Below are positions 46,046-63,957 of a DNA stretch of 64,000 bases, piece by piece. The number at the start of each line of letters is the position of its first letter. Position 1 is the first letter of the stretch. Source of the DNA: Ereboglobus sp. (GTDB taxonomy: Bacteria; Verrucomicrobiota; Verrucomicrobiia; Opitutales; Opitutaceae); assembly GCA_029974595.1 (NCBI GenBank), contig JARKRC010000058.1:1-64000 (forward strand), in the 5' to 3' direction. The notes below the pieces were generated by a model. The model saw only the letters and a list, made by a program, of their open reading frames with translations. It had not been told where the DNA came from and did no database searches. The position numbers and the translations under genes were made by a program.

Positions 46046-46095
46046 TTCCCAAGGCATGAGGAAAGGGCCATGGCCCTTTCCTCATGCCTTGGGAA
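46046..46095. repeat. 50-bp perfect palindrome in transposase leader
   Basis: TTCCCAAGGCATGAGGAAAGGGCCA|TGGCCCTTTCCTCATGCCTTGGGAA read directly. Confidence 0.95.
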
Positions 46096-46107
46096 AATCG
46101 CTCTTCT

Positions 46108-47268
46108 ATGAAACAACGTTTGGATTTTGTAACTTTGGCCCGTTCGCATCGCGGTGGGTTTTTCGCCGAGCTTTGCCGGCGTTTTGGCATCAGCCGAAAG
46201 ACCGGCTACAAGTGGCTCTCGCGCTTTGGAAATGAAGGTCAAAGCGGCCTGATGGATCGTTCCCGAAGACCCCATCGCCAACACCGTCGCACCGCCGAAG
46301 CGACCGAACGGCTGGTGCTTGATGAGCGTTCCTTGCACCCGGGCAACGGCCCTTGCAAGCTCCAGCGCAGGCTTCAAAACAAGGGGCATCTTGTTTTGCC
46401 CAGCGCGACCACCTTCGCGCGCATCCTCAAACGCCATGGCTTCATCAACCCGCTTGAGTCGCAAAAACATGTTGCTTTCCGGCGTTTCGAACGCCTCGGG
46501 CCAAACGAGTTGTGGCAAATGGACTTCAAGGGCCATTTTGCCCTCGCCTCGGGCCAGCGCTGCCATCCGCTCACCTTGCTCGACGATCACTCCCGTTTTC
46601 TTCTGTGCCTGCAAGCCTGCGCCGATGAAACTGGCCCGACGGTGCGCGAGCACTTGCTCGCGCTTTTCCATCTCTACGGCCTTCCCATGCAGATACTCTG
46701 TGACAATGGCTCGCCTTGGGGCTGCCCGACTAGCGAATACACCTCCCTGGCCTTCTGGCTCCTGCGCCAAGGCGTGCATGTTATCCACGGCCGCCCTTTG
46801 CATCCCCAGACCCAGGGCAAGGACGAACGCTTCCATCGCACCCTCAAAGACGAACTGCTTTGCCGCCATGACTGGCCCTCCATGGATGTCACCCAAAAAC
46901 GCTTCGACGCGTTTCGCGAAGATTACAATCATCACCGCCCCCATCAGGCTCTCGACATGCTTGCTCCCATCTCCCGTTACCGCGTGAGCGCAAGGCGCTT
47001 TGTCGGCGAAAACCCACCCCTTGAATACGACTGCTCCGAGATAACCCGCACTGTCAAATCCAAGGGCGAAATCACCTTTCGAAATCGCTTTTATTACATC
47101 GGCCGTGCCTTCCACTCCCACACCCTGGCCCTGCGTCCTTACAAGCGTGACGGCCTCTACTCGGTATGCCTCGGTTCCATCGCCCTTGGCCTCATTGATC
47201 TGTGCGAACCGACTTCAAAACCAAAGGGCCATTACTTGCCCTTGCTCGCTCATCCTCACTCCCTTTGA
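46108..47268 (+). CDS. IS481-family transposase (integrase core)
   Basis: HTH ‘RRFGISRKTGYKWLSRFGNEGQSGLMDRSRRP’, DDE core ‘WQMDFKGHFAL…LLDDHSR…HPQTQGKDERFHRTLKDELL’. Alternative start at 46084 lies in the palindrome. Confidence 0.93.
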   Translation: MKQRLDFVTLARSHRGGFFAELCRRFGISRKTGYKWLSRFGNEGQSGLMDRSRRPHRQHRRTAEATERLVLDERSLHPGNGPCKLQRRLQNKGHLVLPSATTFARILKRHGFINPLESQKHVAFRRFERLGPNELWQMDFKGHFALASGQRCHPLTLLDDHSRFLLCLQACADETGPTVREHLLALFHLYGLPMQILCDNGSPWGCPTSEYTSLAFWLLRQGVHVIHGRPLHPQTQGKDERFHRTLKDELLCRHDWPSMDVTQKRFDAFREDYNHHRPHQALDMLAPISRYRVSARRFVGENPPLEYDCSEITRTVKSKGEITFRNRFYYIGRAFHSHTLALRPYKRDGLYSVCLGSIALGLIDLCEPTSKPKGHYLPLLAHPHSL

Positions 47269-48389: not shown

Positions 48390-48871
48390 GATTTACGATT
48401 TACAAATTACGATTTACGATTGAAGGAGCTTCGGCGGGGAGCGCCGGTGTTTTTTTAGGAATAGTTTTGCTGGCGGGTGCGGGTGGTGCGGAGGGCGGAG
48501 ACGATGATGGAGAGGATTTCAGTGGCTTCTTGCATGAGGGATTCGAGACGTTTTTGCGGAAACGTCCCGGATTCGGCGAGGAGTTCCATCCAGTAGCGGG
48601 TTTCGTCGCATTCTTCCTCCACGATCTTGAGTTTGTTCACGAAATCCGAAGTCGATTTGGCGCGGCAGGCGGCGCGATAATTCGCGCCGACCGATGTGCC
48701 GGAGCGGAGCATCTGGCGTCCAAGAATGTCGGGAACGCCGCCCTTGGGCGGCGCGTTCACGGCCTTGATGACACGCAGGGCGAAGGCCTTGGTGCGCTTG
48801 AGCATTTCTTCCTTGGTCATCGTGTCACTCCTTTCCGGCATTCGTAAATCGTAATTCGTAAATCGTAAATC
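48390..48871 (-). mobile_element. Putative heptad-TIR element carrying a four-helix-bundle gene, between sdhA and sdhB
   Basis: 32-nt inverted termini (48390-48421 vs 48840-48871, 30/32 match), each (GATTTAC)-type heptads; fills the sdhA-sdhB gap. Confidence 0.7.
48455..48820 (-). CDS. Four-helix-bundle protein (23S rRNA intervening-sequence protein / S23 family)
   Basis: ILGRQMLRSGTSVGANYRAACRAKSTSDFVNKLKIVEEECDETRYWMELL; SD-like AAAGGAGTG before ATG at 48820. Confidence 0.88.
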   Translation of the reverse strand: MTKEEMLKRTKAFALRVIKAVNAPPKGGVPDILGRQMLRSGTSVGANYRAACRAKSTSDFVNKLKIVEEECDETRYWMELLAESGTFPQKRLESLMQEATEILSIIVSALRTTRTRQQNYS

Positions 48872-53613: not shown

Positions 53614-53988
53614 ATGTCTTCGGCGGCCTATTTACCGGTTCTCATCCAAATCCTCCTTGCGGCGGGAGTCGCGACGGGGGTTGTTTTTGTCTCGCAATTT
53701 CTCGGGCAGCGCGCGCGGAAAAACGCCATCAAGGACACGCCTTACGAGTGCGGGGTCAAGCCGGACGGATTCGTGCACACGCGCTTCTCGGTAAAATTCT
53801 ACGTCACGGTGATGCTGTTCATCCTGTTCGACATCGAGGTGGTGTTTCTTGTCCCGTGGGCGTTTGTCTACCGCGAATTTCTTGCCAGCCATATTGAAAT
53901 CGTCGTGCCGATCCTGGTGTTCATCGGGGTCATCGTGCTCGGCCTGTTCTATGAGGTGAAGAAGGGCGCTCTCGAATGGGAAAAATAA
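53614..53988 (+). CDS. nuoA: NADH-quinone oxidoreductase subunit A
   Basis: DTPYECGVKPDG…RFSVKFYVTVMLFILFDIEVVFLVPWA. Confidence 0.92.
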   Translation: MSSAAYLPVLIQILLAAGVATGVVFVSQFLGQRARKNAIKDTPYECGVKPDGFVHTRFSVKFYVTVMLFILFDIEVVFLVPWAFVYREFLASHIEIVVPILVFIGVIVLGLFYEVKKGALEWEK

Positions 53989-54024: not shown

Positions 54025-55389
54025 ATGCGCCTCGAAAAAATCATCGCCCGCCGCCGCATCGTTGAACTCGGCAGCCCCGACATAACAAGCGCGCTCGAAG
54101 AGCTCCTCGAAGTTTCCGTCAGCCGCTTTCCCAACCTAAAGCAGGACGTGCTCCTCAAGGGCCTGCTCCAACGCGAGAGCACGATGACTACGTACCTCGG
54201 CCACGGCGTCGCGCTCCCGCATGTGCGCGTAAGGCTCGGCGGCGACCGCCGCTACATCCTCGCCGTGGGGCGCAGCGTGGCGGGCATTCGTCACGACGGC
54301 ACGAGGGCCGACGAGGCGATCCACCTCATTTTCATGCTCCTGGCCGATGAGCGCGCGCGCGATTACCTGCAAGTGCTCGCGGCCATCGCGCGCCTGATCG
54401 ACGACGAGCAATTCGTCAAGACGCTGCTCGTCGCGCCCAAGCTGGACGACGTTTACGAGTGCCTCTACGCGGCATTCGGCGGCGTCACGGCGCGCCCGCC
54501 GCAGGTTCCGCAAAGCAGCATGAACCGCATGATGATCGCCGAATCGGAACGCGTGGCGAAAGGCACCGCGTGCGGCATGATCATGGTGTTTGGCGACACG
54601 TTCAACGGCGCAGCCGAGCTCGGGCACTGGTCGCTGAAGACAAAATCGATCCTCGTCACGCGCAACCTGATCGACCCCGTGCAAACGCACGGGAAATTCG
54701 CGGAGATCATCCAGGTACGCTCGTTTTCGAGCCAGCGGCTCGCGCAGCTGCGCAGCGCGATCATCGTCGGCCTCACGCGCGGCATCATCTCCTTCAAGGA
54801 CCGCATCTGCTGCCTTGCGGGCCTCGCCGGCAGCAACCAGTTCGACACGATCGTCGTCGTCGATGTGGGCCGCGAATTCCAGACGCTCCTCACGCACAAC
54901 ACCGACCTGCTCCCCGACGACGTGAAGCCCGAGGTGCTCGAGCGCGTCATCGCCGTCGCGAGCGAGCTCGCCGTCGAGGGGCGCGAAGGCAAGCCCGTGG
55001 GCTGTCTCTTCGTGCTCGGCGACACCGCGCGCGTGGACAAGCTCACCAAGCCCCTCGTGCTGAATCCATTTTTTGGATACAAGGAGGAGGACCGCAACAT
55101 CCTCAATCCGTTCATGGACGAGACCATCAAGGAGTTCTCGTCGATCGACGGCGCCTTTGTGATTCGCGGCGACGGCGTCGTCATGAGCGCCGGCAGCCTG
55201 ATCCAGGCGGCGGACAACAGTCACGCGCTTCCCGGCGGGCTTGGCAGCCGCCACGCGGCGGCGGCGGCGATTTCCGTGGCGACGGGTTGCATCGCCATAG
55301 CTGTTTCATCGAGCACCGGCCAGGTGACGCTTTTCCGCCGCGGCGTGATGCTCACGCTGATGGAAAAAGGCAAACTGGCCAAGGTTTGA
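54025..55389 (+). CDS. PTS EIIA-type domain fused to a DisA_N-like diadenylate cyclase domain
   Basis: EIIA motif LGHGVALPHVRV; C-terminal ELAVEGREGKPVGCLFVLGD…NPFMDETIKEFSSIDGAFVIRGDGVVMSAGS…GSRHAAAAAIS. Confidence 0.8.
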   Translation: MRLEKIIARRRIVELGSPDITSALEELLEVSVSRFPNLKQDVLLKGLLQRESTMTTYLGHGVALPHVRVRLGGDRRYILAVGRSVAGIRHDGTRADEAIHLIFMLLADERARDYLQVLAAIARLIDDEQFVKTLLVAPKLDDVYECLYAAFGGVTARPPQVPQSSMNRMMIAESERVAKGTACGMIMVFGDTFNGAAELGHWSLKTKSILVTRNLIDPVQTHGKFAEIIQVRSFSSQRLAQLRSAIIVGLTRGIISFKDRICCLAGLAGSNQFDTIVVVDVGREFQTLLTHNTDLLPDDVKPEVLERVIAVASELAVEGREGKPVGCLFVLGDTARVDKLTKPLVLNPFFGYKEEDRNILNPFMDETIKEFSSIDGAFVIRGDGVVMSAGSLIQAADNSHALPGGLGSRHAAAAAISVATGCIAIAVSSSTGQVTLFRRGVMLTLMEKGKLAKV

Positions 55390-63518: not shown

Positions 63519-63957
63519 AAAGTAGGAAGTAGAAATTAGGAATTAGAAAGTCATGAGCACTGAAAAAACAGACCTGAAAGATCGCACCTTCCTTTATGCA
63601 AGGCGCATCATTCGTCTGTTCTCGGCGCTCTCGAAAACCGACGTTGCGCGGATATTGGGAAAACAATTTCTCCGCTCGGGCACCTCGGTCGGCGCCAATT
63701 ATCGTGAGGCCTTTCGTTCCCGCTCGCGTGCCGAGTTCCTTGCAAAAACAGGCGACAGCCTGAAAGAAATCGAAGAGACCGCCTACTGGCTCGAACTCCT
63801 TGAAGCCGAAAACATCGTCAAGCCAGCGCGCCTCGCCCCTCTCATTGATGAAACCCGCCAACTCATCGCCATTTTCGCCACCATTACCAAGACAACCAAA
63901 ACGCGCAGTCTGTCAGTCTTACCCACTTCCTAATTCCTAATTTCTACTTCCTACTTT
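63519..63957 (+). mobile_element. Putative heptad-TIR element carrying a four-helix-bundle gene, between atpG and atpD
   Basis: 33-nt inverted termini (63519-63551 vs 63925-63957, 32/33 match), heptads AAGTAGG/AAGTAGA/AATTAGG/AATTAGA; starts 4 nt after the atpG stop and ends 3 nt before atpD ATG. Confidence 0.75.
63553..63933 (+). CDS. Four-helix-bundle protein (23S rRNA intervening-sequence protein / S23 family)
   Basis: ILGKQFLRSGTSVGANYREAFRSRSRAEFLAKTGDSLKEIEETAYWLELL, same core as 48455-48820. Confidence 0.88.
   Translation: MSTEKTDLKDRTFLYARRIIRLFSALSKTDVARILGKQFLRSGTSVGANYREAFRSRSRAEFLAKTGDSLKEIEETAYWLELLEAENIVKPARLAPLIDETRQLIAIFATITKTTKTRSLSVLPTS

Follow-up and report, generated by a model that had tools for sequence, protein, structure and literature searches.

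The window, a stretch of 64,000 nucleotides from an Ereboglobus contig, carries a gene whose product joins a PTS EIIA domain, a DacZ_P domain and a diadenylate cyclase (DAC) domain in a single chain (Table 1). The fusion is ordinary for its lineage, being the standard, and usually the only, DAC of the Opitutales. We hold with moderate confidence that the protein is an active c-di-AMP synthase of the DacZ branch, gated through its EIIA domain by phosphorylation from PEP via EI and HPr, and acting on K+ homeostasis.

Table 1. Positions of the cyclase gene, its domains and motifs, and the gene directly upstream, in window coordinates.
Feature	Coordinates	Strand	Remarks
nuoA (NADH-quinone oxidoreductase subunit A), directly upstream	53614..53988	+	PF00507, 5.2e-30
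EIIA-DacZ_P-DAC gene (DacD-type diadenylate cyclase)	54025..55389	+	454 aa plus stop; start ATG at 54025, final base of the stop codon at 55389
PTS EIIA (fructose/Ntr type) domain	54079..54468	+	residues 19-148; PF00359
H66, predicted phospho-histidine within GHGVALPH	54220..54222	+	motif GHGVALPHVR read in the sequence
DacZ_P probable sensor domain	54523..54885	+	residues 167-287; PF21755
Diadenylate cyclase (DAC) catalytic domain	54970..55347	+	residues 316-441; PF02457
DGA motif (D375 G376 A377), within SIDGAF	55147..55155	+	sequence, alignments
RHA motif (R409 H410 A411), within SRHAAAA	55249..55257	+	sequence, alignments
SSS (S428-S430), position equivalent to CdaA SEET / DacZ SES	55306..55314	+	alignment

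Domains, predicted structure and neighborhood

In the window protein, PTS_EIIA_2 scores 1.9e-19 (70.5 bits, Pfam cut-off 27), DacZ_P 1.5e-17 (63.9 bits, cut-off 27.4), and DAC 1e-20 (73.9 bits, cut-off 27). The first-pass annotation of this DNA had read an EIIA-Fru/Ntr domain with an intact phospho-histidine motif, a middle alpha/beta segment, and a DisA_N-like domain with SIDGAF and SRHAAAA. The profile search and the structure prediction that it proposed place both end domains over their Pfam cut-offs and match them to known EIIA and DAC folds. The middle segment is also real, and it belongs to a recognized family, DacZ_P, found at the N-terminus of archaeal-type DacZ cyclases. The best NCBIfam match of the DAC half is DacZ, with 114.6 bits versus 28.6 for CdaA and 27.5 for DisA; these 114.6 bits lie far below the 430-bit cut-off of the DacZ equivalog, a model whose name marks its haloarchaeal scope. 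The window protein is also below the cut-off of the PtsN equivalog nitro_reg_IIA (39.9 bits, cut-off 138.7). A chance or frame artifact is excluded by the three domains over cut-off together with conservation over the full length.

We made two AlphaFold models of the window protein, from 35 and 70 sequences; alignment A1 uses 34 and alignment A2 uses 69 of the 80 named-genome loci described below. Both models have a mean pLDDT of 78-79, and their pTM values are 0.51 and 0.44, so that the individual domains can be trusted and their relative placement cannot. The linker after the EIIA domain is poorly ordered, with pLDDT below 50 at residues 153-162 in both models. The first model matches EIIA-Ntr (1a6j; Z 21.0, rmsd 1.9, 148 residues) and several structures with the DAC fold: 2fb5 (Z 16.2, rmsd 2.7, 138 residues), M. 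tuberculosis DisA (9y4s; Z 15.8, rmsd 2.6, 130 residues), and CdaA with AMP (8c4n; Z 15.2, rmsd 2.8, 130 residues). A pyruvate-kinase-C-like fold is not among the structural matches, in a fold comparison that barely covered the DacZ_P region.

The gap between nuoA and the cyclase gene is 36 bases in the window. In 78 of 98 loci (the window, the 80 named-genome loci and 17 more, with some species present twice, e.g. L003 and L170), a gene of the nuoA family lies directly upstream in the same orientation, and the gap is 3 to 280 bases in the 80 loci that have an upstream gene on the same strand. Co-transcription of nuoA and the cyclase gene is possible. The nuoA next to the cyclase is a single complex I subunit gene. 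After the cyclase gene, on the other strand, there is an RNA methyltransferase gene (PF04452, rsmE-like). Elsewhere in the window, a 23S rRNA intervening-sequence protein (PF05635) is encoded at 48458-48841, between succinate dehydrogenase/fumarate reductase genes, and the ORF at 63553-63933 is, as judged by eye, a look-alike of it; the ORF at 46084-47268, which adjoins the sdh/frd genes, resembles by eye an IS481-type transposase.

Distribution in the Opitutales and conservation of the active sites

A scan of named genomes retained 80 of 139 relatives as loci, nearly all of them full length and 50-91% identical. These loci are titled Opitutia, Opitutales, Opitutaceae or its genera, Puniceicoccaceae, or unspecified Verrucomicrobia/bacterium MAGs. 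For a view of the whole phylum, we used an even sample of 387 genomes, from whose per-genome match column the single-DAC counts are taken. DAC occurs in 370 of the 387, and in 59 of the 63 genomes of the window's order. The Pfam scores of the Opitutales DACs are weak (1e-16 to 1e-24, with a best match of 1e-31 in two genomes); for other orders and classes, DAC scores among the matches listed are mostly 1e-31 to 1e-44, in CdaA-like frames of mostly about 280-310 aa.

We also ran a protein search against 78 selected genomes, comprising the 63 of the order and 15 others. The full-length fusion is present in 59 of the 63 Opitutales at 38-100% identity, and the four genomes without it, which are small (1.3-2.3 Mb), are also without any DAC. 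Besides the fusion, a second DAC is present in G223, G310 and G172; the other 56 of the 59 genomes have the fusion alone. In the window genome, the search for other DAC genes and for phosphodiesterases suggested by the first-pass annotation finds no DAC besides the fusion, and it does find the PgpH-type domain PF07697. The second DAC of G172 (L161:4738-5637) is DacZ-like and lacks EIIA; its motif is RHL, and it matches, weakly, both the Panoptes PanS synthase (37jy) and an NCBIfam anti-phage model. Outside the order, G004, which belongs to another class, has a full-length fusion, 33% identical, on a short contig that may be assembly contamination. A recent or isolated fusion is contradicted by the presence in 59 of 63 genomes. 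For plasmids, we find only separate DacZ or EIIA proteins and no other EIIA-DAC fusions (13 records, all of which cover less than 80% of the query).

Residue conservation was assessed on two sets: an 80-row alignment of the window and 79 of the 80 named-genome loci (L022, which has an internal stop, is left out; L066 and L078 are partial), and a set of 60 genomes, the 59 Opitutales with the fusion plus G004. In the 80-row alignment, D375, G376, R409 and H410 are present in every row, H66 is found in each of the 79 rows that have a residue at that position, and the third RHx residue is A in 71 rows and S in nine. All 60 fusion-bearing genomes have D375, G376, R409, H410, S428 and S430. Position S429 is variable, and the Glu of SES/SEET is changed to Ser, Ala or Gly in 57 of the 60. 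H66 is found in 56 of the 60.

The canonical third R of RHR is absent from the window protein, which has Ala instead. The first-pass annotation had singled out this RHA; the motif is there as it was read, but its oddness does not survive, since members of the DacZ branch read RHH, RHL and RHS too. There is RHH in two haloarchaeal DacZ, RHL in the DacZ-like protein of G172, RHR in the outgroup fusion of G004, and RHA or RHS in the Opitutales. The haloarchaeal DacZ with RHH score above the NCBIfam cut-off, therefore the third residue does not define the DacZ branch, and its variation among DacZ, the DacZ-like protein and the fusions indicates that the residue is free in this branch. RHA as a sign of a dead enzyme is ruled out by the RHH and RHL of the DacZ relatives.

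A more general form of doubt about activity is that RHA and the missing Glu leave the DAC inactive or altered, in which case the protein would be a receptor of nucleotides or of c-di-AMP. We regard this as quite improbable. Changing RHR to AAA abolished the activity of M. tuberculosis DisA and of Mycoplasma bovis CdaM according to the accessible text of PMC3328451 and PMC13022847, hence the RHR motif matters, and most members have S429 in place of the SES/SEET Glu. However, R409 and H410 are present in 60 of 60 genomes and the third residue alone differs, at a position where haloarchaeal DacZ has His. The catalytic residues also persist where the EIIA domain decays. Such decay is seen among the four homologs without H66: G304, G149 and G175 form one clade with a degenerate EIIA and small genomes, and G366 has His changed to Tyr. 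G366 falls apart from that clade on the tree, which makes two lineages, though the branches are long and the placement unsure. The DAC motifs and catalytic residues are retained in all four. These H66-less proteins are loci L155, L156, L157 and L159, and three of their genomes are small. The loss of H66 with the DAC kept in four of 60 genomes indicates that phospho-control is not needed everywhere.

The two losses of H66 would also suit an EIIA that is, clade-wide, a relic without regulatory use, the real regulator being DacZ_P, or else ATP, Mn2+ or protein partners. Also in its favor, the EIIA and DacZ_P domains are less conserved than the DAC: most members outside the Opitutaceae-like core are about 40-50% identical to the window protein in EIIA and DacZ_P and 67-74% in the DAC. 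But H66 remains in 56 of 60 genomes even though the EIIA around it is often only 40-50% identical, and since a relic would not keep its site, we find this explanation hard to credit.

Phosphorelay and c-di-AMP output

The window genome has one EI, one HPr, and one further PtsN-type EIIA, each carrying at the expected place the histidine that we take to be the active one. It has no EIIC of the PF02378 family, and on that ground a cognate sugar permease of this family was discarded as the partner of the EIIA domain. Relay, riboswitch and phosphodiesterase counts were obtained for 64 genomes, the 63 of the order plus G004. EI is found in all 64 and HPr in 63, the exception being the DAC-less G146. 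Both are present in 60 of the 60 fusion-bearing genomes and in three of the four DAC-less Opitutales. Because EI and HPr are nearly universal, DAC-less genomes included, their presence is not specific, and phosphorylation of the fusion is possible rather than demonstrated. PF02378 EIIC occurs in seven of the 64 genomes, a near-absence that would fit a regulatory PTS.

A rival reading is an active synthase whose EIIA is not a switch of the DAC; the EIIA would be an arm that, in the manner of PtsN, attaches to K+ transporters, KdpD-like kinases or other proteins. The fusion might then have two separate outputs, or the EIIA might merely place the enzyme at its targets. We consider this possible, if rather unlikely. 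In the portion of PMC13104625 available, PtsN works through proteins that it binds, among them TrkA, KdpD and YcgO. An arm of this kind would also agree with the four of 60 homologs that lack the phospho-histidine yet have the DAC, and with the poorly ordered linker in both models. Against it, the window genome already has a separate PtsN-like EIIA, and EIIA and DacZ_P-DAC are fused in 59 of 59 matching Opitutales, which favors a functional tie between them.

The evidence for c-di-AMP itself comes from riboswitches and a phosphodiesterase. The c-di-AMP riboswitch (RF00379) is found in six of the 64 genomes, and the fusion is the only DAC in all six, which argues against an inactive cyclase; with strict filters, there is no match in the window genome nor in 57 others of the 64. 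In the four of the six loci that we examined, the gene after the riboswitch encodes Kup (K_trans, 1.7e-166) in one case, AA_permease_2 in two, and Band_7 in one. APC proteins like AA_permease_2 include the K+ importer KimA. The Band_7/SPFH protein, whose gene follows the riboswitch at L176:1501-1673, is not a known K+ transporter. The PgpH-type 7TMR-HDED extracellular domain (PF07697) is present in 50 of the 59 fusion-bearing Opitutales, including the window genome, and in one of the four DAC-less genomes; it is absent from G004, and 13 of the 64 genomes are without it. Taken together, these findings are good indirect evidence for production of c-di-AMP in the order, with the fusion as its source. 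Synthesis by the fusion is well supported, and the target of c-di-AMP is most likely K+ and osmotic balance.

Proposed mechanism and relation to known systems

In the mechanism that we favor, the protein would be a soluble c-di-AMP synthase of the DacZ branch with its N-terminal EIIA as a phosphorylation-controlled input. Phosphate would pass from PEP to EI, from EI to HPr, and from HPr to H66 of the EIIA domain. DAC enzymes require a head-to-head dimer, and blocking the dimer can inhibit them (PMC8573169, in its accessible part). The phosphorylation state, and possibly also a ligand of DacZ_P, may alter this head-to-head assembly, and the altered assembly would change the rate at which two ATP are converted to c-di-AMP. 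A phosphorylation-sensitive change of assembly is probably the simplest coupling. The c-di-AMP produced would act on K+ uptake, in some relatives via the riboswitches before K+ transporter genes, and would be broken down by the PgpH-type phosphodiesterase where one is present. In proteobacteria, PtsN acts more often in its unphosphorylated form, P. putida being a case of the reverse, as the available portion of PMC13104625 has it. For the fusion, we infer enzyme activity, phosphorylation of H66, and an effect of it on the DAC that has one sign or the other; which sign cannot be read from the sequence.

The 2013 classification by Corrigan and Gruendling reportedly described a class, DacD, with a PtsN/EIIA-like domain. 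In the accessible part of Braun et al. 2019 (PMC6741144), the legend of Figure A1 gives as DacD members Lacunisphaera limnophila, Coraliomargarita, Puniceicoccaceae, Opitutae, and a Verrucomicrobia bacterium, all of which fall in the same group where the fusion is usually the only DAC. We find the full-length fusion in Lacunisphaera MAGs and in a Puniceicoccaceae genome (L031, L041, L052, L073). Since the order usually has only this DAC, DacD is very likely the window fusion, which would thus belong to an already named class; the match rests on the taxonomic place of the listed members. It is very likely, too, that the EIIA-DAC architecture as such is already catalogued. What we add is the kinship to DacZ, the status as sole DAC, the relay, the riboswitch link, the explanation of RHA, and the natural losses of the phospho-histidine; in the portion of PMC6741144 available, the text on DacD is without DacZ_P, sole-DAC status, relay, riboswitch link and histidine losses. 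We found no account of the function of an EIIA-DAC fusion, or of a link between PTS and DAC, in a literature search that mostly stayed at the level of listings. The c-di-AMP reviews PMC5575661 and PMC10243994 have no mention of IIA and PtsN, and neither has PMC7288161.

A close known relative is archaeal DacZ (CdaZ), with which the fusion shares a DacZ_P followed by a DAC, the GxRHxAAAAI motif, and the best NCBIfam match. DacZ has no EIIA, whereas the window protein has one at its N-terminus, Ala as third RHx residue, and the downstream Glu changed to Ser. Haloferax volcanii has a DacZ with diadenylate cyclase activity (accessible part of PMC6741144). PtsN (EIIA-Ntr) shares with our protein the EIIA fold, the phospho-histidine motif, a genome with EI and HPr, and usually no PF02378 EIIC; the output of PtsN is a bound partner, whereas that of the window protein is its fused DAC. 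PtsN/EIIA-Ntr controls K+ transport in proteobacteria (PMC9239096, PMC13104625, in the portions available). The likeness to CdaA, DisA, CdaS and CdaM lies in the DAC fold with its DGA and RH motifs. CdaA has a transmembrane anchor, DisA has an HhH domain, and CdaS has N-terminal helices. In their place the window protein has EIIA and DacZ_P, and the first-pass annotation was right to remark that a PTS link is not shown by CdaA, DisA or CdaS.

For most bacteria it is not settled what governs c-di-AMP synthesis. K+ transport is regulated both by PtsN and by c-di-AMP, which have been studied in different bacteria; in the Opitutales the two meet in one protein. We give slightly better than even credence to the broader proposal that in the whole order the c-di-AMP synthase, usually the only one present, is wired directly into the PEP phosphorelay, with EIIA reading PEP/pyruvate and DacZ_P (pyruvate-kinase-C-like) probably reading a metabolite, so that the K+ controls of PtsN and of c-di-AMP are merged. 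The input is part of the polypeptide itself and its chemistry is defined, which makes the question tractable with three purified proteins and PEP. If the proposal is true, the lineages without the phospho-histidine are natural uncoupled variants, usable as controls. If confirmed, the fusion would connect central carbon flux directly to a second messenger, through which the energy state of the cell probably sets its potassium balance.
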